From a virus: a stretch of DNA of 40,002 nucleotides. The notes beneath the pieces are model-generated. The model searched no databases, had not been told where the DNA came from, and was given only the letters and a program-made list of their open reading frames with translations. Positions within the stretch are counted from its first letter, which is position 1. Every line of letters begins with the position of its first letter. The DNA lies in the IMG/VR virus record IMGVR_UViG_3300042889_000038, positions 1 to 40,002 of that record; one strand, given 5' to 3'. This document shows, piece after piece, positions 26,425 to 36,165 of the stretch. Made by a program: the position numbers and the translations under genes.

Positions 26425-27054
26425 TTAGACCTCTTCCAGCGTTACCGAAATATTCCAAAGATCATGGTTTGTCCCACCACGTTTTACTACGCTATAGTTA
26501 AAATCAGCAAAATAAACTTGAATAATTTGATTATATTTTCCTAAGTTATTAAATGATGAATTATCTGTTCCAAAGTTTTTATATTTATCATAAGCCAAAA
26601 ACATCCAGAATGGACCTTGATGGTTTTCATACCAATCTAATACTTCTACTCCGCCTGCTCCACCATCTGAAGTAAACTCTCCAGTTGTATTTTTACTTGG
26701 TGAAGAGCCAGTTGAACTAAAGTCTGCTAACTCAGAATATCCACGGGATGGTAAATTACTCCAAGATACATTCATTGTAAGTTTATCTGCAATATGATAA
26801 GACCTCATCCTACCATTGATAGTTCTTTCTCGTTTTTCAATTCGTTCTGAGTTAAATGACATTTCTGCTCTATTATGATCTGACAATATTAAAAATTGGT
26901 CAACACCACCAGAGGTAAGGGCTGGATCTGCTCCTATTTCTTGTCCAGTTGGCACGTAAAGACCGTTTACAAGAGTTCCAGCATTCTCTGACCAAAGGAT
27001 GCCCTGTGGTCTCTGATATCTCTTTCTACCCGAAATATATGCTGCGGTTGCCAT
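26425..27054 (-). CDS. Distal-tail-like protein
   Basis: The 209-residue protein sits between tape measure and tail hub, the place of the distal tail (Dit) protein. It is beta-rich and ends DLWNISVTLEEV, a typical closing strand for Dit- and tail-tube-like folds. Central LTMNVSWSNLPSRGYSELADF and PFWMFLAYDKY are notable aromatic blocks. It begins as TAATG off the tape-measure gene. The name comes from gene order and fold-like pattern, not a specific motif. Confidence 0.62.
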   Translation of the reverse strand: MATAAYISGRKRYQRPQGILWSENAGTLVNGLYVPTGQEIGADPALTSGGVDQFLILSDHNRAEMSFNSERIEKRERTINGRMRSYHIADKLTMNVSWSNLPSRGYSELADFSSTGSSPSKNTTGEFTSDGGAGGVEVLDWYENHQGPFWMFLAYDKYKNFGTDNSSFNNLGKYNQIIQVYFADFNYSVVKRGGTNHDLWNISVTLEEV

Positions 27055-30000
27055 TATGCCCCTCTTTGAGTTCTAATTCTTTGATTGTCAATTTGTTTAA
27101 TCTGTGTCATAACCGTTCTTGCAATATCATTTGGATTTGCATCAGATTTAACATTAACGTTTAGATTATAATTATACACTGAAGATCCTCCGTATGAGCC
27201 ATCATTTATTTTATTAAGACTATTTACCCCAAAAGAATCAACGGCATTTTTACGAACAACAAATTCTCCAGGGGTAAGCATTGCTGGAATTGTATCGGTA
27301 CCTTTAGAGTATCCACCTGAAGCATAGTATTTAGGAACCATACCACCTCTTGCTAACGGTATTATGTTTGTCTTAAAAGCCTGACTATATGCTTTTGCAT
27401 AATCCCTAAGTTCATTGCCACCTATAGTGCCAGACTCAACTGCGGGAAATACTTGTTTTTCAAAATACTCTTTATTTGCACTAGCCAAAGATGATTTTTG
27501 TAAAATTTCTTGACTAGTTCCAGTTGCAACAGTTGGTGTTTTTATTGCAGACTTTGAATTTAGTGAATCCCAAATGGCTTTCATTCTTAAGAGTGTGGCT
27601 TCGGCAACTAATAAAATACCATTAAAACCTTTTGCTTCATACTGTGCTGCCTCTATAGCAATTACTTGTTGTTCATATGCAAACCTTGCAGCATCAATAC
27701 CCTTAAGTGTTGCCTTTAAAGAATCTTCCTGTGCACGCAATGTAACATTTTGAAGTTTATAATTATCATCTTGTAGTTTTAAAATTTTAGCAACAAGAGG
27801 TATTCTTTCTTGTTCAAGAGAATATATTTTTTCTTCAATTTGTACTCTTGTTAGACCGCTAGCACTTGTTATTTTAGCAATTTCTTTTTCTCTTGCAATT
27901 TGTAAAAGTTTAGAACCTTTTTCTTGTGCTCGTTGAGCGGCGGCTTGTCGCTCTTCTTGTATAGCCTTTGCTGCTGCAGAAATATCTCCTTTTGTTAATG
28001 CGTCAGCAATTGAAATTCTTGATGATTCTTTAGCAGCAATATCATCGTTAATGTCTGATATTTCCTGAAGAGCCTTTTCTTGTGCATCATATTTTTCATT
28101 AATCTTTGTAATGGATCTATCAATTAAATTTAAATCTTGATTAAATTGCTCAATTACTCTATTAATGTTTTCTTCAATGTATCTTTCTTGTGTTTGAATT
28201 AATCTTTCATTTGCATCAATAAGATCATTTATTCTATCAATTTCTAACTTAACAGAAGCCCTTGCCTGTCTTTCAAGAAAATCATAATATTTTAAACTTT
28301 CTTCCATTGCATTTTTAAATGCTTGTGCTGGATCAGTAGCAAGTAATAGATTTGTTTGTGCTTGTTTTAACTCATTATTTTTTTTAATTAAAGTATCAAG
28401 TTCTTTAACGGTTTTTGCTTGAGAAAGTGATCTCATAAATTCTGCATCTGCTATTAATTTTATACTATCTGCAACACCAACGCCAGCAGCAGTTAATCTT
28501 TTAAAGCCATTAACTTGTGCATTTATATTTGTAATTTGTGAATCTGCACTTTCTTGAAAAGCACCCAAGGCTGCCTCTTTATATAAGTCCATTGCGATTT
28601 TGCCCTCTTGGGTAAGTTGTACAATTCCTTTTTTAAGAAGTTCGGTATTAAGATATACTTTTTGAGTGTCATTGTCTAGACTAGAAACAAAATCAATAAA
28701 GCCTGTGTCAGCACCTGCTGCGTTAAGTTGTTGTATAACTCCTGAAAACTTTGTTATATCTCCGTTTGACTTCTTAAATACTCTTTTAAGTTCTTCTAAT
28801 CCACCCTGAGCATTAATGCTTGCATCTCTTGTTAGTTTTAATTTTCTTAAAAGATCATCGAGTGTAGTGTCTCTTGGTCCAGCATCTTTAGGGGTTTTGG
28901 GTCCTTTTGGAATTTCATTTAGTGCTTTTGCAGCACGTTGTGAAACCTTTGCGCCTGCTACTGCTGCCAGATTTGGAGTCCTTTCTTTTTCTTTTCCTGT
29001 ACCAGTCGTAGTGTAATACTTTGCTTCTAAAACTTTTCTTCTTTCTTCTACTCTGTCAGGGGATCCACCACCTTTAGAAAGTTCGTTGTCAATAAAATCT
29101 TCAACTTCTTCGGGTGTAATACTCTTGTAAATAGCAATGTATTCTTGTATTACCGTTTTCTTTATTTCATCAGTTGAATTTTCATATTTACTCCAAATAT
29201 CAACTAAGCCAGACATGTTTAAACCTTCATCACCTGTAATTGTTTTTATTTCATTTACAGTTTTTAAAGTTATTGGACCTTTAATATTTTCTATTGCTCG
29301 ATAATTTTTAGCAAGTTTGTCTAAAATGTCAACACCATTTTTATTTACTAAAACTTCAAGATTTATAGCATCTCCATCAATATCTTTTAATCTATCTAAA
29401 ACCTTTACCCTGTCTTCAAAATTTTCTTCATCTGTTAAGATTGCCATTGTTATTTCTGGTTTTATGTTTTTACCTGACACAATATCCATAAACTTTTGAA
29501 ATACACCTGGATCTTGTGATGTTACGGCTGTTTCTATAATTGTTTTAAGTTTTGTTATTTCTTCGGTAGTTTTTCCTGGAAACATATCTAGCAATTTTAT
29601 TGCTGTTGCAATATTTAATTGTCCGCCTAAAACAGCAGTTTTAATTTGAACTTCAAGGTCCATGCCCTTTTGTGTGTTTGCTATACCTGCAGTTTTATTT
29701 TTAAAATCTGATAAAAATGGATTATCTTTATTTGCTGCTTCAATGCCAAAACCTAAAGCATCCATAAATTTACTTTTATTGCCTACTGTTGAGTTATACA
29801 AAATTTGGGCATCTTTAATTATTTGTTGAGACTTTTCTGCAAGAATTTGATCTTCTGATTTTTGTTTTGCTTTTGCAGCAACAATTTGATTTTCTAATTG
29901 TAGTTGTTTTGCTTTGTCTGTAGTTGCTGCTTTTTGTTTTTCTAAACTGTCAATAATTGTTTGATTGGTTTGATATTGAGCATTTCTTTGTGCTAAAACA

Positions 30001-33000
30001 ATTTCTAAATTTTTTGCATTTATAACTGCTACTTGAGAAACAAATTCATCTGATGTAGCACCTTTCATTTTATCTTTTATATCATTAATCATGTCTTCTT
30101 GTGAAGAAATAATATTTAATCTTACAGAAAGTGGATCCTTTAATAAATTTTGTCCGTCTGGACCAATAAGTTCTCTTAATCTGCCATTTATTTGTGCAGT
30201 TATAGACATATCTCCAAGATTAATACCAATTGCCCTTGCTACGCTATTTGCTTGCTCTGCTGACATAACTCCATCAGATATATAGGCACCTAATTGCGTT
30301 GCTAATAACTGAGCAGCCTTTGGTCCATCTTTTGCTACAGTGTCATTAAATCCTTTAAAGATTTCTTTGCCAATATCAGATGCCAAGAAGTTAGTTCCAA
30401 ATTGATTGTCTTCACGATCATAGCCTGTTCTAAATTCATTTGTTCTTGCACCAGTTTCTCTTTGTTTTTCTGCAATTTGTGATGCTCCAACTTTTCCAGT
30501 AAGTTCTCCAACTTTTTGCATTTTTTTAGTGCCTGCTGTTACGGAATCTACATATGCTACCTGTTTCTTTGTTGCATCATCCATTCGTTTATTTAATAAG
30601 AAAAATCCTCCAGCAAGAGTGGCTGCGGCGGCAACTGCTATTCCAATAGGATTTGTAAGCATTGGGGCAATTGTTGCAAGAGCAGAAACACCCATCATTG
30701 CAGTGCCAACTCCAGTATTGCCAGTCATAAATCCTGCCATTGCTCCAATACCCGCAATTCCAGCAACAGGGCCAGCAACCGATCCAATTCTTTGTGCTCT
30801 TTGTGCTCTTACTTCACGCTTTTGTTCTTTTAATTGTTGTTTAGTTAATGGTGCGGCTTCAGTAGCAATTTTGTTTTTATCTTCAATTATTTTTAATTCT
30901 TGTTTTAATGCGACAAGCCTTCTTTGTTCTACTTTTTCAATTTGTCTTCTTAATGAGTTTTGCTGAGCCTTAAAATCTTCTTGTACTTTTGATATAGCCA
31001 TACCTGGTTTTGTTGAAATAGGATTTCCACTAGCATCAAAACCACCTGCTGCGCCAAATGCAACACTTCCAGAACCCTTAAATCCAAATTTAGCAGGTAT
31101 AACTCTTGATACATTTTTTGCAGGTATAACTCTTTTATCTGATGCTGCACCGCCAGATACTTGCATTCCTGGTGGCTTTGATGTTCCAGTTTGTCCAGTT
31201 ACTGTTTTTTCTTTACCATCGTTAAATTGAACTTTTTCTCTTTTAGTTAAAATAATATTTTGAAAATCTTGTAAAGTTTTTAATCCTTTAGTTCCATAGG
31301 TATTATTTTTAAATCTATGATCTAGTCCAGCATCTAGTGCATGTGCTTGATATAAAGCATTTTGTGGATTTGATATTCCCATTTTCTTTAAAGATTTTGG
31401 ATCTTGTGAAATTACGTAACGAGCAATTCCTTGTAAAGTTTTTGCTTGTGTTTGTGTTACTGGATGAGTTTCAGAACCTTTAATTCCTTCTTTACGATAA
31501 AAATCTAATAATACGTTTTTATCAATTCCTTTTGATTTAAGTTCCTCTGCAGACATTTGTATTAAATTTTTGCCAAGATTTCCTTGTAAATTAGTTGAAA
31601 GAAAATTGTTTACATATCCTCTGTCTAAAACAACATTTTTAAGATCCCAAATTTTTTTCCCATCTGGACCAATTGATGGTGTAATGTGTGAAGCCTCTAC
31701 CTGAATTAATTTATTAAATTGTCTTTCATTAAAAAGACCTTTTTCTTGAAGACGTTTTTTTATTGCGTCTACTTCTCCTTGACCTTCAAAATCAAAAATG
31801 TTTTGTGCTCTTATTTTTTCAATAACTTTTTTAATTTCGTTCGATTTAGACGTATCTCCTGGTCTAGTGTTTCGAGCAACACTTCCAGTTTTAGTTAAAC
31901 CAAGTTTGTCTTTAATTTGACTTGCTGTAAATACATTACCACCCACTCTATTTTTATTTTGTTCATATCTTTCGTCTATTGCTTTTGATATTTCTGCTGC
32001 TGGTATATTCAATCTGGTGTATTTACCTTCAGGATCAACATAATTATAAGTTCCATTAGGGTTTTTAACAAACTCATTTAAAAGTTGTTGAATACCATTT
32101 GCAGATCTTTGACTAGCATTATAACTTTTATTTTCTGGATTAAGATCTGCAGGAACTTTTAGTCCAATTGTTCCAGTTTCATACCCCTTAATGTCTCCTG
32201 AGACTAATGCTGCAATTAAAGGTTTAAATCTTTCATCTTGTGCAACTTTTGCTGGAATAATTGCTTCTCCAGGAGCACCAAGAATTGGAATAATATCTCC
32301 TGCGCCTCTTGGTCCAGGCAGTCCAGTTGTTCCAGATGCAAATCCTTTTGGTTTTCCACCTTTCATACCAGGCTTAAACCCAGGCATCATCATTCCTGGA
32401 TTTGCTCTAGCAAAGTTTAATGCTGCAAAAGTTGCATCAATGTATGCTTGACGTAATAATCTAACTGCCGTTGTTTCTGCTGCAAATGATTGAGTTAGTC
32501 TTGTATGTGCCTGATTTAAAGATGCAGCAACTGTGGCTGCTTCTAATTGTTCGGTATTTAAGTATTGGGTTTGTTGTGCAAGAAGGGTAGTGTTACTTCC
32601 AGCCCGTAAAAATCCTGAACGCATTGTTATAAATAGTTTTATTATATTTGCAACACCGTTGGCAAGTAAACCAAAAGTCATTAATAGTACTGGTCCAATT
32701 ACACCAACAAGTGTTGTTGCTACAACAATAAATTTCTTAGTACCGTCTCCAAGATTATTAAATTTTTCTAAAAATCCTCCAATGGCTTTTGCAACTGGAG
32801 TAATTGCCTTTAAAAATTCTTTACCTATTGGGGCTATTGCAAGTTTTAACTGCTCTATAGATTCTTTAAAGTCTGTACTAATTGCATCTTCTAATACGCC
32901 AAGTTCTCGCTCAGACATTATTGCAAGTTCTTCAATTGAAGCACCAGCAAGATTTAATACTCTGGCAGCCTGAGTTCCATCTTTAGTAACGTTTTGAAAT

Positions 33001-34358
33001 AATGTTGATAGACGTGAAAATTGAAATTTACCGAACAATTGTTCAATAGCACGAGCACGATTTAGTGGGTCTAAAGTATCTAAGGCTAAAGCAAAATCTA
33101 TAACTGTTTCTCTAATGTTTCCTTGATTACCTTCTACAATTGCATTAATGTTAACGCCCATGCTGGCAAGCATTTTGCTTGCTTTTTCACTTGGGTTAAT
33201 TAAAGATGCAAGACCTGATTTAAGAGCGTTAGCACCTTCTGATGCATTAATACCACCCTCTTTCATTGCTGTTAAGAAGAAAGCAAGATCTTCAACTTCT
33301 CCACCAAGTTGTTTAACAACTGGTCCAGCCTTTGGAATTGCAATAGTTAAATCTTCAATAGATACAACAGTCTGGTTTTCAACTGCGTTTAAAAAGTTAA
33401 TTTTTTTAGCAAGATCTTCTGCTGCTACACCAAAAGCATTTGTAACGGATATAGTTGTTTCAAGTGCTTGGGCTTGTTCTACACCACCGAGAACTGCAAG
33501 GCGAGTAGCCTGAGCAACTTGTGCTGTAAGGTCTGCACCAGTTTTGCCCATTGCTGCTGCTCCTGCTGCCATTTCCATAGTATCAGCAACTGCAACTCCA
33601 TATTTTGTAAACTCTTTAGCGAGTTGCTGTACATCAGCCAGCGCCTTGTTTGTTTCTTCAGTTGTTGTAAACATATCTCCATAAACACGCTTAAATCTAA
33701 TTGCTTGTTTTTCAAGATCCATGAAGGTCTTGGCAGCGGTGGTGCCAAAATAAGCAAGAGGAATTGTAAAACCAACCATAAGTTGGCGTCCTGCCCACTG
33801 GGTATTTTTACCAAAGTTTAAAAGGTTGGTAGATCCTTGTTTTAATAGTTGATTTAATAATGCTTGTTTTTGTGCTGCTACCGCTGTTTTATTAGCATAA
33901 TTAGTCATATCCAAAGTTCTTGGAGTAATAGACATTGCTTTTATAGCACCGCTAGCATCACGACCCATTTTAATATATTGGGTCTGCATTTTCTTAACAC
34001 GTTCTTCGGCTACCTTGCCAATTGTGTTAAACTCTTGTTTAAATAATCTTCCAAATGTTTTTGTAGATCCGCCTGCAAAACGGAAATACTCACGCATTGA
34101 GAGTTTATTAGTCTCTAATGCATGAGTAAAAGATTCCGTAGAACTTCTTACCAACCCCATCTGGGCATTAAATTTCCCAGTTGCATTTATAGCATTTAAA
34201 AGGTTGGTCTGTAAACTTTTTTGAGCGGCTGCTGCGGTAGCGCTATTTTTTGCTACAGATGAATGAAAAGTTGCTAATTGACGTTGGAGATTTTTAAGTT
34301 CTGCCAGTGCCGCTGACGTATCAATATGTACGCCAATATTAGCATTTACATCAGCCAT
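27054..34358 (-). CDS. Tape measure protein
   Basis: At 2434 residues it is the largest gene here and sets tail length. The N-terminal part (1 to about 600) is the conserved tape-measure domain (FAGGSTKTFGRLFK, GAAAMGKTGADLTAQV, FGVAAEDLAKKINFLNAV, INASEGANALKSGL). Hydrophobic stretches at about 540-580 and 1193-1255 are likely membrane-insertion segments. A D-x-I-P-x4-P-G-E motif appears twice, at about 680-695 (GDIIPILGAPGE) and 2350-2365 (TDTIPAMLTPGE). Between them lie an unrecognised helical block (about 850-1030), long coiled coils (about 2030-2230) and charged linkers. AGAGG precedes the ATG. Length implies a tail over 300 nm if mostly extended helix. Confidence 0.93.
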   Translation of the reverse strand: MADVNANIGVHIDTSAALAELKNLQRQLATFHSSVAKNSATAAAAQKSLQTNLLNAINATGKFNAQMGLVRSSTESFTHALETNKLSMREYFRFAGGSTKTFGRLFKQEFNTIGKVAEERVKKMQTQYIKMGRDASGAIKAMSITPRTLDMTNYANKTAVAAQKQALLNQLLKQGSTNLLNFGKNTQWAGRQLMVGFTIPLAYFGTTAAKTFMDLEKQAIRFKRVYGDMFTTTEETNKALADVQQLAKEFTKYGVAVADTMEMAAGAAAMGKTGADLTAQVAQATRLAVLGGVEQAQALETTISVTNAFGVAAEDLAKKINFLNAVENQTVVSIEDLTIAIPKAGPVVKQLGGEVEDLAFFLTAMKEGGINASEGANALKSGLASLINPSEKASKMLASMGVNINAIVEGNQGNIRETVIDFALALDTLDPLNRARAIEQLFGKFQFSRLSTLFQNVTKDGTQAARVLNLAGASIEELAIMSERELGVLEDAISTDFKESIEQLKLAIAPIGKEFLKAITPVAKAIGGFLEKFNNLGDGTKKFIVVATTLVGVIGPVLLMTFGLLANGVANIIKLFITMRSGFLRAGSNTTLLAQQTQYLNTEQLEAATVAASLNQAHTRLTQSFAAETTAVRLLRQAYIDATFAALNFARANPGMMMPGFKPGMKGGKPKGFASGTTGLPGPRGAGDIIPILGAPGEAIIPAKVAQDERFKPLIAALVSGDIKGYETGTIGLKVPADLNPENKSYNASQRSANGIQQLLNEFVKNPNGTYNYVDPEGKYTRLNIPAAEISKAIDERYEQNKNRVGGNVFTASQIKDKLGLTKTGSVARNTRPGDTSKSNEIKKVIEKIRAQNIFDFEGQGEVDAIKKRLQEKGLFNERQFNKLIQVEASHITPSIGPDGKKIWDLKNVVLDRGYVNNFLSTNLQGNLGKNLIQMSAEELKSKGIDKNVLLDFYRKEGIKGSETHPVTQTQAKTLQGIARYVISQDPKSLKKMGISNPQNALYQAHALDAGLDHRFKNNTYGTKGLKTLQDFQNIILTKREKVQFNDGKEKTVTGQTGTSKPPGMQVSGGAASDKRVIPAKNVSRVIPAKFGFKGSGSVAFGAAGGFDASGNPISTKPGMAISKVQEDFKAQQNSLRRQIEKVEQRRLVALKQELKIIEDKNKIATEAAPLTKQQLKEQKREVRAQRAQRIGSVAGPVAGIAGIGAMAGFMTGNTGVGTAMMGVSALATIAPMLTNPIGIAVAAAATLAGGFFLLNKRMDDATKKQVAYVDSVTAGTKKMQKVGELTGKVGASQIAEKQRETGARTNEFRTGYDREDNQFGTNFLASDIGKEIFKGFNDTVAKDGPKAAQLLATQLGAYISDGVMSAEQANSVARAIGINLGDMSITAQINGRLRELIGPDGQNLLKDPLSVRLNIISSQEDMINDIKDKMKGATSDEFVSQVAVINAKNLEIVLAQRNAQYQTNQTIIDSLEKQKAATTDKAKQLQLENQIVAAKAKQKSEDQILAEKSQQIIKDAQILYNSTVGNKSKFMDALGFGIEAANKDNPFLSDFKNKTAGIANTQKGMDLEVQIKTAVLGGQLNIATAIKLLDMFPGKTTEEITKLKTIIETAVTSQDPGVFQKFMDIVSGKNIKPEITMAILTDEENFEDRVKVLDRLKDIDGDAINLEVLVNKNGVDILDKLAKNYRAIENIKGPITLKTVNEIKTITGDEGLNMSGLVDIWSKYENSTDEIKKTVIQEYIAIYKSITPEEVEDFIDNELSKGGGSPDRVEERRKVLEAKYYTTTGTGKEKERTPNLAAVAGAKVSQRAAKALNEIPKGPKTPKDAGPRDTTLDDLLRKLKLTRDASINAQGGLEELKRVFKKSNGDITKFSGVIQQLNAAGADTGFIDFVSSLDNDTQKVYLNTELLKKGIVQLTQEGKIAMDLYKEAALGAFQESADSQITNINAQVNGFKRLTAAGVGVADSIKLIADAEFMRSLSQAKTVKELDTLIKKNNELKQAQTNLLLATDPAQAFKNAMEESLKYYDFLERQARASVKLEIDRINDLIDANERLIQTQERYIEENINRVIEQFNQDLNLIDRSITKINEKYDAQEKALQEISDINDDIAAKESSRISIADALTKGDISAAAKAIQEERQAAAQRAQEKGSKLLQIAREKEIAKITSASGLTRVQIEEKIYSLEQERIPLVAKILKLQDDNYKLQNVTLRAQEDSLKATLKGIDAARFAYEQQVIAIEAAQYEAKGFNGILLVAEATLLRMKAIWDSLNSKSAIKTPTVATGTSQEILQKSSLASANKEYFEKQVFPAVESGTIGGNELRDYAKAYSQAFKTNIIPLARGGMVPKYYASGGYSKGTDTIPAMLTPGEFVVRKNAVDSFGVNSLNKINDGSYGGSSVYNYNLNVNVKSDANPNDIARTVMTQIKQIDNQRIRTQRGA

Positions 34359-34380: not shown

Positions 34381-34713
34381 TTAGTTGTTTGCAAGCACTG
34401 TGTTTAAAAGAGCGTTTGCATCTGCTAATTTAACTCCAGAAGCGGCTTCAATAACTTTGTAAACTGTTGGAAGGTCTAGGACCTCTTCTAGTTTAGCAAT
34501 ATCTTTAGACAGGTCTGGATTGTATTGTTCCATGGCAATTTGTACGCATTCAATAAGAAGAGTCATTGACTTCTCATTATCCTCTGCTACCCCTGCCACC
34601 TGCTCAAACTTCTTCATAAATGGACGAAGCAAAGAAATTTTAAGTGGACGTACCTTAATCTTTGTGCCATCCATGAGAACAAGTTCTTCACCCTCATGTA
34701 CTGTTGTTGCCAT
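34381..34713 (-). CDS. Tail assembly chaperone, short (G-like) form
   Basis: The 110-residue protein lies just upstream of the tape measure, the position of the G chaperone. It is helical (LKISLLRPFMKKFEQ; LLIECVQIAMEQY; LPTVYKVIEAASGVKL) and aligns over nearly its whole length, with one gap, to the first 95 residues of the preceding 231-residue protein at roughly 40% identity by eye. It ends NTVLANN with no slippery sequence and only 22 bases before the tape measure, so no frameshifted extension is possible here. It has its own promoter and a strong AGGAGGA site, suggesting abundant synthesis. Confidence 0.8.
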   Translation of the reverse strand: MATTVHEGEELVLMDGTKIKVRPLKISLLRPFMKKFEQVAGVAEDNEKSMTLLIECVQIAMEQYNPDLSKDIAKLEEVLDLPTVYKVIEAASGVKLADANALLNTVLANN

Positions 34714-34741
34714 TGTGTATCCTCCTATATAGGCTATGTCA

Positions 34742-34750
34742 ATTATAGCA
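34742..34750 (-). promoter_or_regulatory. Extended -10 promoter for the short chaperone and tape measure
   Basis: Minus strand TGCTATAAT in the 45-base gap between the two chaperone genes. No -35 match is seen. The short leader ends in AGGAGGATACACA before the ATG, the best ribosome binding site in this block. Confidence 0.6.
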
Positions 34751-34758
34751 TAAGGAGA

Positions 34759-35454
34759 CTATTTTCTTAGGTCTTCGTAATCCAAACCTTGTCCTATGCC
34801 AAACCCTGCTTTTTGTGCATTTATACCTTGTAAAGCCAAAACATCATTGCTATCATTTGTCTTGCCTTTACTAAATACTCTGGCTTTCATGTCTTCCCAT
34901 TCTTTTTGACCTTTATCTTTATTTGATTCTTTATCTAGGTCTACCCCCTGAATTGCAGCCAAAAATTTCTTTTCTGTATAATCTAATTCTCTAATTACCT
35001 CTAAAGTTGCCATGAGTTCTGGCATTGATAAAGATATTTCTAGTTCTTGGTAATCTTTCCAAATACCCAGCAAAAATACCTCTGCCTCTAATTTTGCAAG
35101 ATCTAAAGTCTCCCAAGTTTGACCACTACCAATTGCCTGATCTTTTACTGGTTCCTCTGATTTTTTATTAATTTTAATACCAGCAGCAGCATCTAGTACC
35201 TTATATATAGTTGGCATGTCTACATTATCTTCAATATCTTTAACAGTACCAGAAATTTTAGGACAGTACTGTTTCATACAAACTCTGACACATTCTACTA
35301 ATACCTCAATTGCCTGATCGTCGTTTTTAGTATTTTTAATATTACCAAAGGCTATCATAAATTCACGAAGGTATTTTATTTTTAATGGTATTATTTCTAA
35401 TTCTGTTCCATCAAATAAATATGCTGTTTCACTTTTATATATTGTAGTTGCCAT
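34759..35454 (-). CDS. Tail assembly chaperone, long (GT-like) form
   Basis: The 231-residue protein has the same N-terminal domain as the short chaperone (about 1-96; shared MATT, DGT, PLKI, ECV, QY, PT-YKV, AA-G-K positions) followed by a linker and a C-terminal domain with LSMPELMATLEVIRELDY, EKKFLAAIQGVDLD and GFGIGQGLDYEDL. I recognise these as the T-region of actinobacterial phage chaperones, normally reached by ribosomal frameshift from G. Here it is one continuous frame. Its ATG has no ribosome binding site and is nine bases after a -10 box, so translation may be leaderless and weak. It follows the terminator behind the major tail protein. Confidence 0.8.
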   Translation of the reverse strand: MATTIYKSETAYLFDGTELEIIPLKIKYLREFMIAFGNIKNTKNDDQAIEVLVECVRVCMKQYCPKISGTVKDIEDNVDMPTIYKVLDAAAGIKINKKSEEPVKDQAIGSGQTWETLDLAKLEAEVFLLGIWKDYQELEISLSMPELMATLEVIRELDYTEKKFLAAIQGVDLDKESNKDKGQKEWEDMKARVFSKGKTNDSNDVLALQGINAQKAGFGIGQGLDYEDLRK

Positions 35455-35463
35455 ATAAAATCT

Positions 35464-35472
35464 ATTCTATCA
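35464..35472 (-). promoter_or_regulatory. Extended -10 promoter for the long chaperone (near-leaderless)
   Basis: Minus strand TGATAGAAT, nine bases before the ATG, directly after the T-tract of the UUCG-loop terminator. Transcription starting six to nine bases downstream would leave zero to three bases of leader. No ribosome binding site is present in that interval. Confidence 0.5.
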
Positions 35473-35507
35473 TAAAACAACAAAGCCCACATCCGAAGAC
35501 ATGGGCT
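35472..35507 (-). terminator. UUCG-tetraloop terminator after the major tail protein
   Basis: On the minus strand ten base pairs (two of them G-T) form between AGCCCATGTC and GATGTGGGCT, closed by a TTCG loop on a C-G pair, the exceptionally stable C(UUCG)G arrangement. A T-rich stretch, TTGTTGTTTTAT, follows. It lies 19 bases after the major tail protein stop. Confidence 0.88.
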
Positions 35508-35526: not shown

Positions 35527-36165
35527 TTAAGACAATAGGTCTCCGAAGGTACGATCAACGATCTTACCGTATGAGCCTGAAGTATCTTCTGGTAGCAAAC
35601 GGAATGATACTTCAAACATTGAAGCCTCATCACGCTTTGCTGAAACTGTTACGTTTTCAATTGACAAAGCACGATATGCTGTATAAACACGTTCCACGAA
35701 TGGAGAGTCAATACAGTCACCTGTGCCAGGTCCTACTGCAACAATTCCACGCTCTACTGGACATTCTCCAATATCTCCACCTGATAGGTTTAAAACCTGT
35801 CCTGCGTTAGATGCCTTTGATCCAGATAGTTCGTCTGAGTTAAATGCTAGAGCCAAAAGAAGATTCTCAAGGGTAGCCTCAGCAAAAGCAGTTGCAAGAT
35901 TTACCTGCATGCCTTGCTTGTAAAGTTTAGCAACGTCAAGAATTTGGTCAACCTGTACTTCACCGAAGTCTGGTTGGAACTGTAATTCAAGACCGTTCAT
36001 GGTGTAACCTACGTTTGTATAACCTGCATCATCAGCAAGGGTTTCCTTGAATGATTCTTCAGTATCAAAACTTTCCAGAGTACCTGGAGTTAGGGTTGTG
36101 TCTGCAACAAAAAGTGCTGCAGCGCCAACGATAATGTTGGTCGATGTTCCACGACTGTATGCCAT
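35527..36165 (-). CDS. Major tail protein
   Basis: A 212-residue protein located between the tail-terminator-like gene and the tail chaperones, the standard position of the tail-tube subunit. It is acidic and beta-rich: GTSTNIIVGAAALFVADTT near the start, GYTMNGLELQFQPDFGEVQVDQ (two segments, about 53-73) and SMFEVSFRLLPED near the end, all fitting a tube protein. It has its own extended -10 promoter, AGAGGTG six bases before the ATG and its own terminator, as expected for a protein needed in hundreds of copies. GC is higher than in most neighbours by eye. Confidence 0.85.
   Translation of the reverse strand: MAYSRGTSTNIIVGAAALFVADTTLTPGTLESFDTEESFKETLADDAGYTNVGYTMNGLELQFQPDFGEVQVDQILDVAKLYKQGMQVNLATAFAEATLENLLLALAFNSDELSGSKASNAGQVLNLSGGDIGECPVERGIVAVGPGTGDCIDSPFVERVYTAYRALSIENVTVSAKRDEASMFEVSFRLLPEDTSGSYGKIVDRTFGDLLS

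Follow-up and report, generated by a model that had tools for sequence, protein, structure and literature searches.

Organization of the chaperone locus

The window analysed here, a virus record, is 40,002 bases long and has a G+C content of 35%. All of its genes lie on the minus strand, including those with matches to a UvsX-like recombinase, a DNA polymerase, a replicative helicase, and a terminase. The tail region contains two adjacent genes that are described below as the long (GT) and short (G) tail assembly chaperone genes. GT (34759..35454, minus strand) encodes 231 amino acids in a single continuous frame, with an N domain (residues 1 to 96) fused in frame to a T domain that begins at about residue 114, and G (34381..34713, minus strand) encodes a protein of 110 amino acids that consists of the N domain only. 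The upstream neighbour (35527..36165, minus strand) is a probable major tail protein that matches PHROG 2175, a protein with an Ig domain. This label is backed by synteny, as the counterparts in phages BillNye, Annadreamy, Faust, and Tomas carry the note "major tail protein." The downstream neighbour (27054..34358, minus strand) is the tape measure protein, which matched PHROG 10030 in a scan of its N-terminal 300 residues. The gap of 22 bases that the sequence-only reading placed between the end of G (34381) and the tape measure ATG (34358) was borne out.

The intergenic regions contain a distinct set of candidate signals. Between the major tail protein gene and GT is a terminator-like hairpin with a U-rich tail (35474..35507, minus strand; z -4.41), the stem of which (35484..35507, minus strand) carries a UUCG loop. 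It is followed by an extended -10 box, TGATAGAAT (35464..35472, minus strand), which is only 9 nt from the GT ATG and predicts a leaderless or near-leaderless mRNA. G is preceded by a conserved extended -10 box, TGCTATAAT (34742..34750, minus strand), and by the Shine-Dalgarno sequence AGGAGG (34721..34726, minus strand), the near-perfect ribosome binding site noticed when the locus was first read. The placement of the chaperone genes between the major tail protein and the tape measure was also found in the annotated Streptomyces phages that were compared.

G and GT are paralogous over their N domains. The sequence-only reading had aligned about 95 N-terminal residues at roughly 40% identity with one gap, and BLASTP confirmed this with 39 of 96 residues identical (41%), one gap, and a score of 89.7 bits; at an E value of 4e-28 the homology is real. 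The N termini of both proteins match PHROG 10504 (8.5e-22 and 2.3e-21). Of the two, GT alone matches PHROG 10474, through residues 131 to 214, in agreement with the earlier assignment of a T-like C-terminal domain, in one continuous frame, to the longer protein only.

Split and frameshift forms among related loci

Relatives were collected by scans of viral sequences, each of which contributed the best 80 of several hundred matches, so the locus counts given here describe these samples only. Profiles of the N and T domains were used to classify 405 loci, with some contigs giving more than one locus. The fused GT gene followed by G, the pair that the sequence-only reading proposed to look for in related contigs, was present in 339 of the 405. 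Another 50 loci, 8 of them from named phages, had an N gene followed by T, and T was at -1 relative to N in all 50. The remaining 16 comprised nine with GT alone, three with N alone, two with T then N, one with N, T, and N, and one unmatched locus (L001), which is the window's own piece read on the opposite strand. The nine GT-alone loci are cut, since they end 1 to 152 bases past GT, and the N-alone and T-then-N arrangements (L229, L262, L120, L303, and L138) were at locus ends.

The sole N, T, and N locus (L136) was considered as a possible mixed locus, carrying both a frameshifting gene and a separate G, and was rejected. Its T region (L136:4500-4700) contains a tandem repeat, of about 34 bases by eye, that breaks the GT frame and is probably an artefact of assembly or sequencing. 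No clear mixed locus was found among the 405. After the 16 loci of neither type and 7 incomplete ones were left out, the remaining 382 were collapsed to 249 distinct regions, consisting of 205 with the split form and 44 with the frameshift form. GT was in a single frame in all 205 distinct split regions. Many of the loci are close relatives, and a reduced set of 55 GT representatives was therefore used in addition.

The frameshift form was seen in the named phages compared (seven Streptomyces phages and Rhodococcus phage Trina), in which N and T occupy overlapping frames with T at -1; the annotation of Yaboi gives a joined N/T product. Metagenomic viruses from IMG/VR also have this form and fall into two groups, A and B. 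A canonical slippery heptamer was found in 36 of the 36 distinct metagenomic frameshift-form regions, always at one place, 39 to 45 nt before the end of the N stop codon, and it was CCCAAAC in 26 (group A) and GGGAAAC in 10 (group B). In three of the seven Streptomyces phages, CCCAAAT was present at the matching DPN codons, and Trina has GGGAAAA. Judged by these sequences, the frameshift-form relatives presumably do frameshift.

In the other four Streptomyces phages (Coruscant, Jay2Jay, Yaboi, and Tomas; L161, L163, L166, and L168), the overlap between N and T contains no canonical X XXY YYZ heptamer. The matching codons in these four read C CCG GAA, perhaps a noncanonical slip site.

Start signals of the two genes

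The start regions of G and GT differ consistently across the split loci. The median Shine-Dalgarno pairing energy was -2.9 for GT (n = 204), -9.9 for G (n = 205), and likewise -9.9 for the metagenomic frameshift-form genes (n = 36). Of the 204 G and GT pairs, 203 had the stronger Shine-Dalgarno pairing at G and none had it at GT. Among 204 GT genes, 196 had an extended -10 box (TGnTAnnnT) that ended 4 to 12 nt before the ATG, compared with 6.6 +/- 2.8 in shuffled sequences, and its distance was mostly 6 or 9 nt. At the same spacing the box was absent from the starts of G (0 of 205), of the metagenomic frameshift-form genes (0 of 36), and of the genes in the named phages (0 of 8). In the reduced set of 55 GT representatives, 51 had the near -10 box and one had a strong Shine-Dalgarno sequence. 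The description of the long gene as having a near-leaderless start and no ribosome binding site thus holds for its relatives as well.

The -10 boxes of G and of the frameshift-form genes lie mostly 22 to 37 nt upstream, which leaves space for a Shine-Dalgarno sequence, and in all 205 G genes an extended -10 box is present no more than 50 nt from the start. The sequence-only reading had given the short gene a promoter of its own. A generic sigma-70 scan lent this no support, finding four sites compared with 6.3 +/- 2.3 in shuffled sequence and none at the start of G or GT, whereas the conserved extended -10 box does speak for such a promoter. When counts from the motif list were summed, TGnTATAAT stood before G in 202 of 205 cases and before the metagenomic frameshift-form gene in 32 of 36, which suggests recognition by a strong host sigma factor.

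Within the split loci, no such box was seen 4 to 12 nt before the major tail protein gene (0 of 192), the tape measure gene (0 of 197), or the second gene upstream from the major tail protein gene (0 of 185). The gene immediately upstream from the major tail protein gene, annotated as the tail terminator in Faust, had a near -10 box in 10 of 186 loci, and leaderless starts may therefore occur elsewhere in these tail operons.

Leaderless genes in actinobacteria are described as marked by TANNNT about 12 bp before the start and as making up around 20% of all genes (PMC3160421). GT has a box of this type near its start and no strong Shine-Dalgarno sequence, and its mRNA is accordingly predicted to be leaderless or near-leaderless.

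Terminator-like hairpins separate the chaperone genes from the major tail protein gene in both forms. Of 198 split loci, 181 had one between the major tail protein gene and GT, compared with 3 of 198 shuffled sequences, and one preceded the chaperone gene in 22 of 33 metagenomic frameshift-form loci and in all 8 named phages. The 198 gaps that separate GT from G yielded no terminator, and messages that begin at GT may for this reason also carry G. From the major tail protein gene to the first chaperone gene, the median distance is 72 nt in the split form and 99 nt in the metagenomic frameshift form, as if the leader with the Shine-Dalgarno sequence of GT had been deleted.

Codon adaptation and selection

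Codon adaptation was calculated against the pooled major tail protein genes of the split loci, and the value for the major tail protein itself is circular because that gene set is the reference. In the split loci, G had a median value of 0.66, and the N and T domains of GT had medians of 0.55 and 0.56, respectively, with G exceeding the N domain of GT in 193 of 205 regions. The metagenomic frameshift-form genes had medians of 0.65 for N and 0.54 for T, and N exceeded T in 36 of 36. G is thus biased like the abundant part of a frameshifting gene and the N domain of GT like the rare part. This codon bias agrees with an abundant G and a scarce GT.

Median dN/dS values were 0.137 for the N domain of GT, 0.078 for its T domain, and 0.089 for G, as estimated from 573 pairs selected for equal length and for a dS that exceeded 0.15 but was not saturated. 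These values indicate that all three are under purifying selection.

A probable duplication and its effect on the G to GT ratio

Taken together, these observations make it likely that a duplication split a frameshifting chaperone gene and that the ratio of G to GT now depends on a separate promoter and mode of initiation for each gene. Both parts of this explanation had been put forward from the letters of the window. They gain support from the relatives in which T lies at -1 of a single G gene, from the 339 of 405 loci with the split arrangement, from the single clades that G and GT each form in the N tree, and from the conserved contrast in start signals together with codon adaptation. In the proposed course of events, the ancestor would have made both products from one gene by -1 ribosomal frameshifting at a slippery heptamer, and this gene would then have been duplicated. 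The upstream copy would have had its G and T parts fused in one frame and would have been left with neither a slippery site nor a Shine-Dalgarno sequence. Its -10 box would thus have come to stand at the ATG, and GT would be translated from a leaderless mRNA that begins behind a terminator. In the downstream copy, T would have been lost and the strong promoter and Shine-Dalgarno sequence retained, and this copy would now encode G. With GT leaderless and G led by a Shine-Dalgarno sequence, the ratio would be written into the promoters and initiation modes of the two genes: scarce GT from a terminator-shielded leaderless message and abundant G from its own promoter and strong Shine-Dalgarno sequence. 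By analogy with lambda, the tape measure protein would be the partner of G, and the tail tube protein would be that of the T part of the scarce GT.

What the genomes themselves provide is sequence evidence, namely, homology, architecture, the lack of a conserved slippery site, conserved start signals, codon bias, purifying selection, and relatives with T at -1. From this evidence we infer the leaderless GT transcript, the actual ratio of G to GT, and the binding partners of the two proteins. Some caution is warranted with regard to the scarcity of GT, as leaderless genes are described as common in actinobacteria (PMC3160421) and are not necessarily weak.

The same caution lends something to a different account of the duplication, in which the copies differ in job rather than in dose. 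G and GT would then form a heteromeric or staged chaperone, would be made in similar amounts, and would use their different start signals for timing. Consistent with this, the N domain of GT now stands far from G (a long branch and 41% identity), and its median dN/dS is higher than that of G. Against it are codon adaptation, in which the N domain of GT stands at the level of T and G stands at the level of the N domain of frameshifting genes, as fits a low dose of GT, and start signals that are common to G and the frameshifting gene but not shared by GT. We regard this account as unlikely, although it is the best placed of the alternatives, and prefer a duplication in which dose is what changed.

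Probable origin and direction of the split

Phylogenetic trees of the N and T domains have few columns for many rows, and their forks should be read with this in mind. In the N tree, the G proteins formed one clade (SH-aLRT 98; 99/91 in a second tree), as did the GT proteins (92; 98/95 in the second tree). G was joined to group B, the frameshift-form genes with GGGAAAC, at an SH-aLRT of 92, inside the metagenomic frameshift-form genes. The N domain of GT was on a long branch outside G and the metagenomic frameshift-form genes. A tree in which G and GT were constrained to stand together had a lower likelihood but was not rejected (p-AU 0.40). In the T tree, the split form was one clade (SH-aLRT 95). 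The T tree favoured neither group A nor group B as the nearer to this clade, as the fork that joins it to group B has zero length and a support of 0.

Trees of four neighbouring tail genes (880 columns) needed one change between the split and frameshift forms, with a support for the split clade of SH-aLRT 76, or 65/59 in a second tree. Groups A and B joined each other with a support of 81 in the neighbouring genes and 93 in the major tail protein. A single clade of group B and the split form was not rejected by the neighbouring genes (p-AU 0.446). The tree of the major tail protein alone needed two changes between the forms.

The change from frameshift to split is the simpler direction because the outgroup, the Streptomyces phages, is of the frameshift form and because the slippery codons are shared by group A and three of the phages. 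A single origin of the split form appears probable, as does this direction. Both rest on the distant outgroup and the shared slippery codons. It is also conceivable, though somewhat less so than a difference in job, that the metagenomic relatives had the split form first and their frameshift groups arose when the genes merged again, or that GT was transferred from another phage. The position of the GT N domains outside G and the metagenomic frameshift-form genes fits such a history, as do the union of groups A and B in the neighbouring-gene trees and the two changes that the major tail protein tree requires for the split form. Against it, the slippery codons of group A stand at the same place as those of the three Streptomyces phages, and both the frame offset and the heptamer would need to have been rebuilt. 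The trees also leave room for the opposite arrangement, because neither GT beside G nor group B and the split form as one clade was rejected.

A possible trace of this change is found in the C-terminal tails of G. The residues D-A/P-N, which would be a remnant of the slippery codons, are present in 69 of 205 G tails. This DAN/DPN motif is only suggestive of such a remnant because group B, which is nearest by the N tree, has different codons there.

Slippery sequences within the split genes

The absence of a slippery site at the short gene had been part of the case for a split pair. Read literally this is incorrect, as G contains a TTTAAAC heptamer in frame (T TTA AAC) near its end (34402..34408, minus strand), but the claim stands insofar as it concerns a conserved signal. 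TTTAAAY occurs at this position in only 23 of 205 distinct G genes, and a -1 shift at the heptamer of the window would add 18 codons before a stop and no T domain. TTTAAAC is thus no conserved frameshift signal and was judged not functional. Heptamers of some kind were present in 24 of 205 G tails.

A slippery site within the long gene that gave a separate short product would have counted against the split as first proposed. Canonical heptamers were found within codons 85 to 130 in 71 of 205 GT genes, which is no more than in codon-shuffled genes (73.1 +/- 5.4), and they varied in place and type. T is in a shifted overlapping frame neither in the GT gene of the window nor in the 205 split regions, and no conserved overlap heptamer was found in GT or G of these regions. 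These results leave very little room for the idea that GT is still recoded, with slippage yielding an additional short product and the pair representing redundancy rather than replacement. The 71 genes with a heptamer, and a short run of A within codons 85 to 130 of the GT gene of the window, might seem to favour it, but a number equal to that in shuffled genes, spread over varied positions and types, is quite different from the 36 of 36 heptamers at one place in the metagenomic frameshift-form relatives.

Identity of the two proteins

The assignment of G and GT to the tail assembly chaperones draws on their relatives and their position. G matched 127 records in the phage collection, all of them from Streptomyces phages, and many of the 60 matches listed are annotated as tail assembly chaperone and others as hypothetical. 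GT matched the same 127 Streptomyces phage records and three Rhodococcus records, and the T part of Coruscant matched 127 Streptomyces and two Rhodococcus records. The PHROGs matched by G and GT carry no function, and the G and GT proteins of the window reached the cutoff of no family when Pfam, NCBIfam, and PDB sequences were searched with profiles. Scans of bacterial genome contigs with the GT and G profiles (two scans) found no relative. Judged from the viral relatives only, the host would belong to the Actinomycetota.

Predicted models of the two proteins had middling confidence, with a mean pLDDT of 69.4 for GT and 76.0 for G. The GT model aligned to the HK97 chaperone (2ob9_B) with a Z score of 4.2 and an rmsd of 5.5 over 84 aligned residues, at rank 1 of 359 but tied with unrelated chains. 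The G model aligned to the same chain with a Z score of 4.4 and an rmsd of 5.5 over 86 residues, at rank 7 of 296 and likewise tied with unrelated chains. An HK97-type chaperone fold for G and GT is therefore suggestive only. Among predicted viral proteins, G was best matched by the tail assembly chaperone from an uncultured phage (E value of 4.8e-07, 31% identity).

A weak match to DUF4778 (PF16008) was seen in 36 of 56 GT members, with a best E value of 0.00072. It corresponds to about residues 143 to 193 of the GT protein of the window.

That the pair might be two other structural or regulatory proteins at this site, as the functionless PHROGs, the lack of a family at cutoff in Pfam and NCBIfam, and the weak matches to solved structures would allow, is the least credible of the alternatives given the site between the major tail protein and the tape measure, the Streptomyces phage homologs annotated as chaperones, the -1 frame partner in the relatives, and the chaperone as best predicted viral fold match of G. 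G and GT are thus best regarded as the probable short and long tail assembly chaperones of a long-tailed phage, with binding of the tape measure and tail tube proteins attributed to them by analogy.

Relation to known chaperone systems

The closest comparison is with the chaperone genes of the Stanwilliamsviridae, Streptomyces phages that include Coruscant, Jay2Jay, BillNye, and others. These genes have homologous N and T domains and the same neighbours, and there the extended -10 box lies at leader distance in seven of the eight named phages, Trina included. Unlike the window, in which T is fused and a second, N-only gene is present, the seven examined have one copy with an overlapping T at -1.

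Frameshifting in tail chaperone genes is described as widely conserved in long-tailed phages (PMC5009743). In lambda, gpG and gpGT are made in a molar ratio of 30:1 that is described as crucial, with G binding the tape measure protein and the T part of GT binding the tail tube protein (PMC5009743). Lambda likewise has a short and a long chaperone that share an N domain, but it makes them from one gene by a -1 frameshift rather than from two genes, and the likeness is one of architecture and not of sequence comparison. In some T4-like phages, one short gene and one longer fusion gene are reported to replace frameshifting (PMC10885494, citing Vladimirov et al. 2022), and the kind of arrangement described here is therefore already known. 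The likeness to the T4-like pair, with its separate short and fused long genes, is one of working mode and not of common descent. It belongs to another phage lineage and was compared by description only, whereas in the present lineage the frameshifting relatives and the contrast between leaderless and Shine-Dalgarno-led starts are visible. The leaderless genes of actinobacteria resemble GT in having TANNNT about 12 bp before the start (PMC3160421), but they are a genome-wide class, and here the mark distinguishes one of two paralogs in a tail operon.

Among the matches listed in searches of the literature on chaperone genes, which mostly leave subscription papers outside, there was no report of the split pair in this lineage, and none of its frameshift-form relatives or of the contrast between leaderless and Shine-Dalgarno-led starts.

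Implications

On balance, although with less assurance than for the duplication itself, it appears that a clade of phages known from environmental DNA has dropped the chaperone frameshift and written the ratio into its DNA as a leaderless, terminator-shielded GT and a Shine-Dalgarno-led G. For annotation, the locus serves as a warning that where two adjacent chaperone genes are present, a frameshift should not be forced and one of the two should not be labeled hypothetical. The arrangement also predicts that GT is made from a leaderless mRNA and G from a Shine-Dalgarno-led mRNA, with a codon bias that is already matched to dose. Related clades still frameshift, and the lineage thus offers a natural experiment on why the frameshift exists, whether for a fixed ratio or for co-translational coupling. 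A lineage that has given up the frameshift, beside relatives that have not, would show what is able to take its place, and suggests that selection maintains the ratio of the two chaperones rather than the mechanism by which it is achieved.
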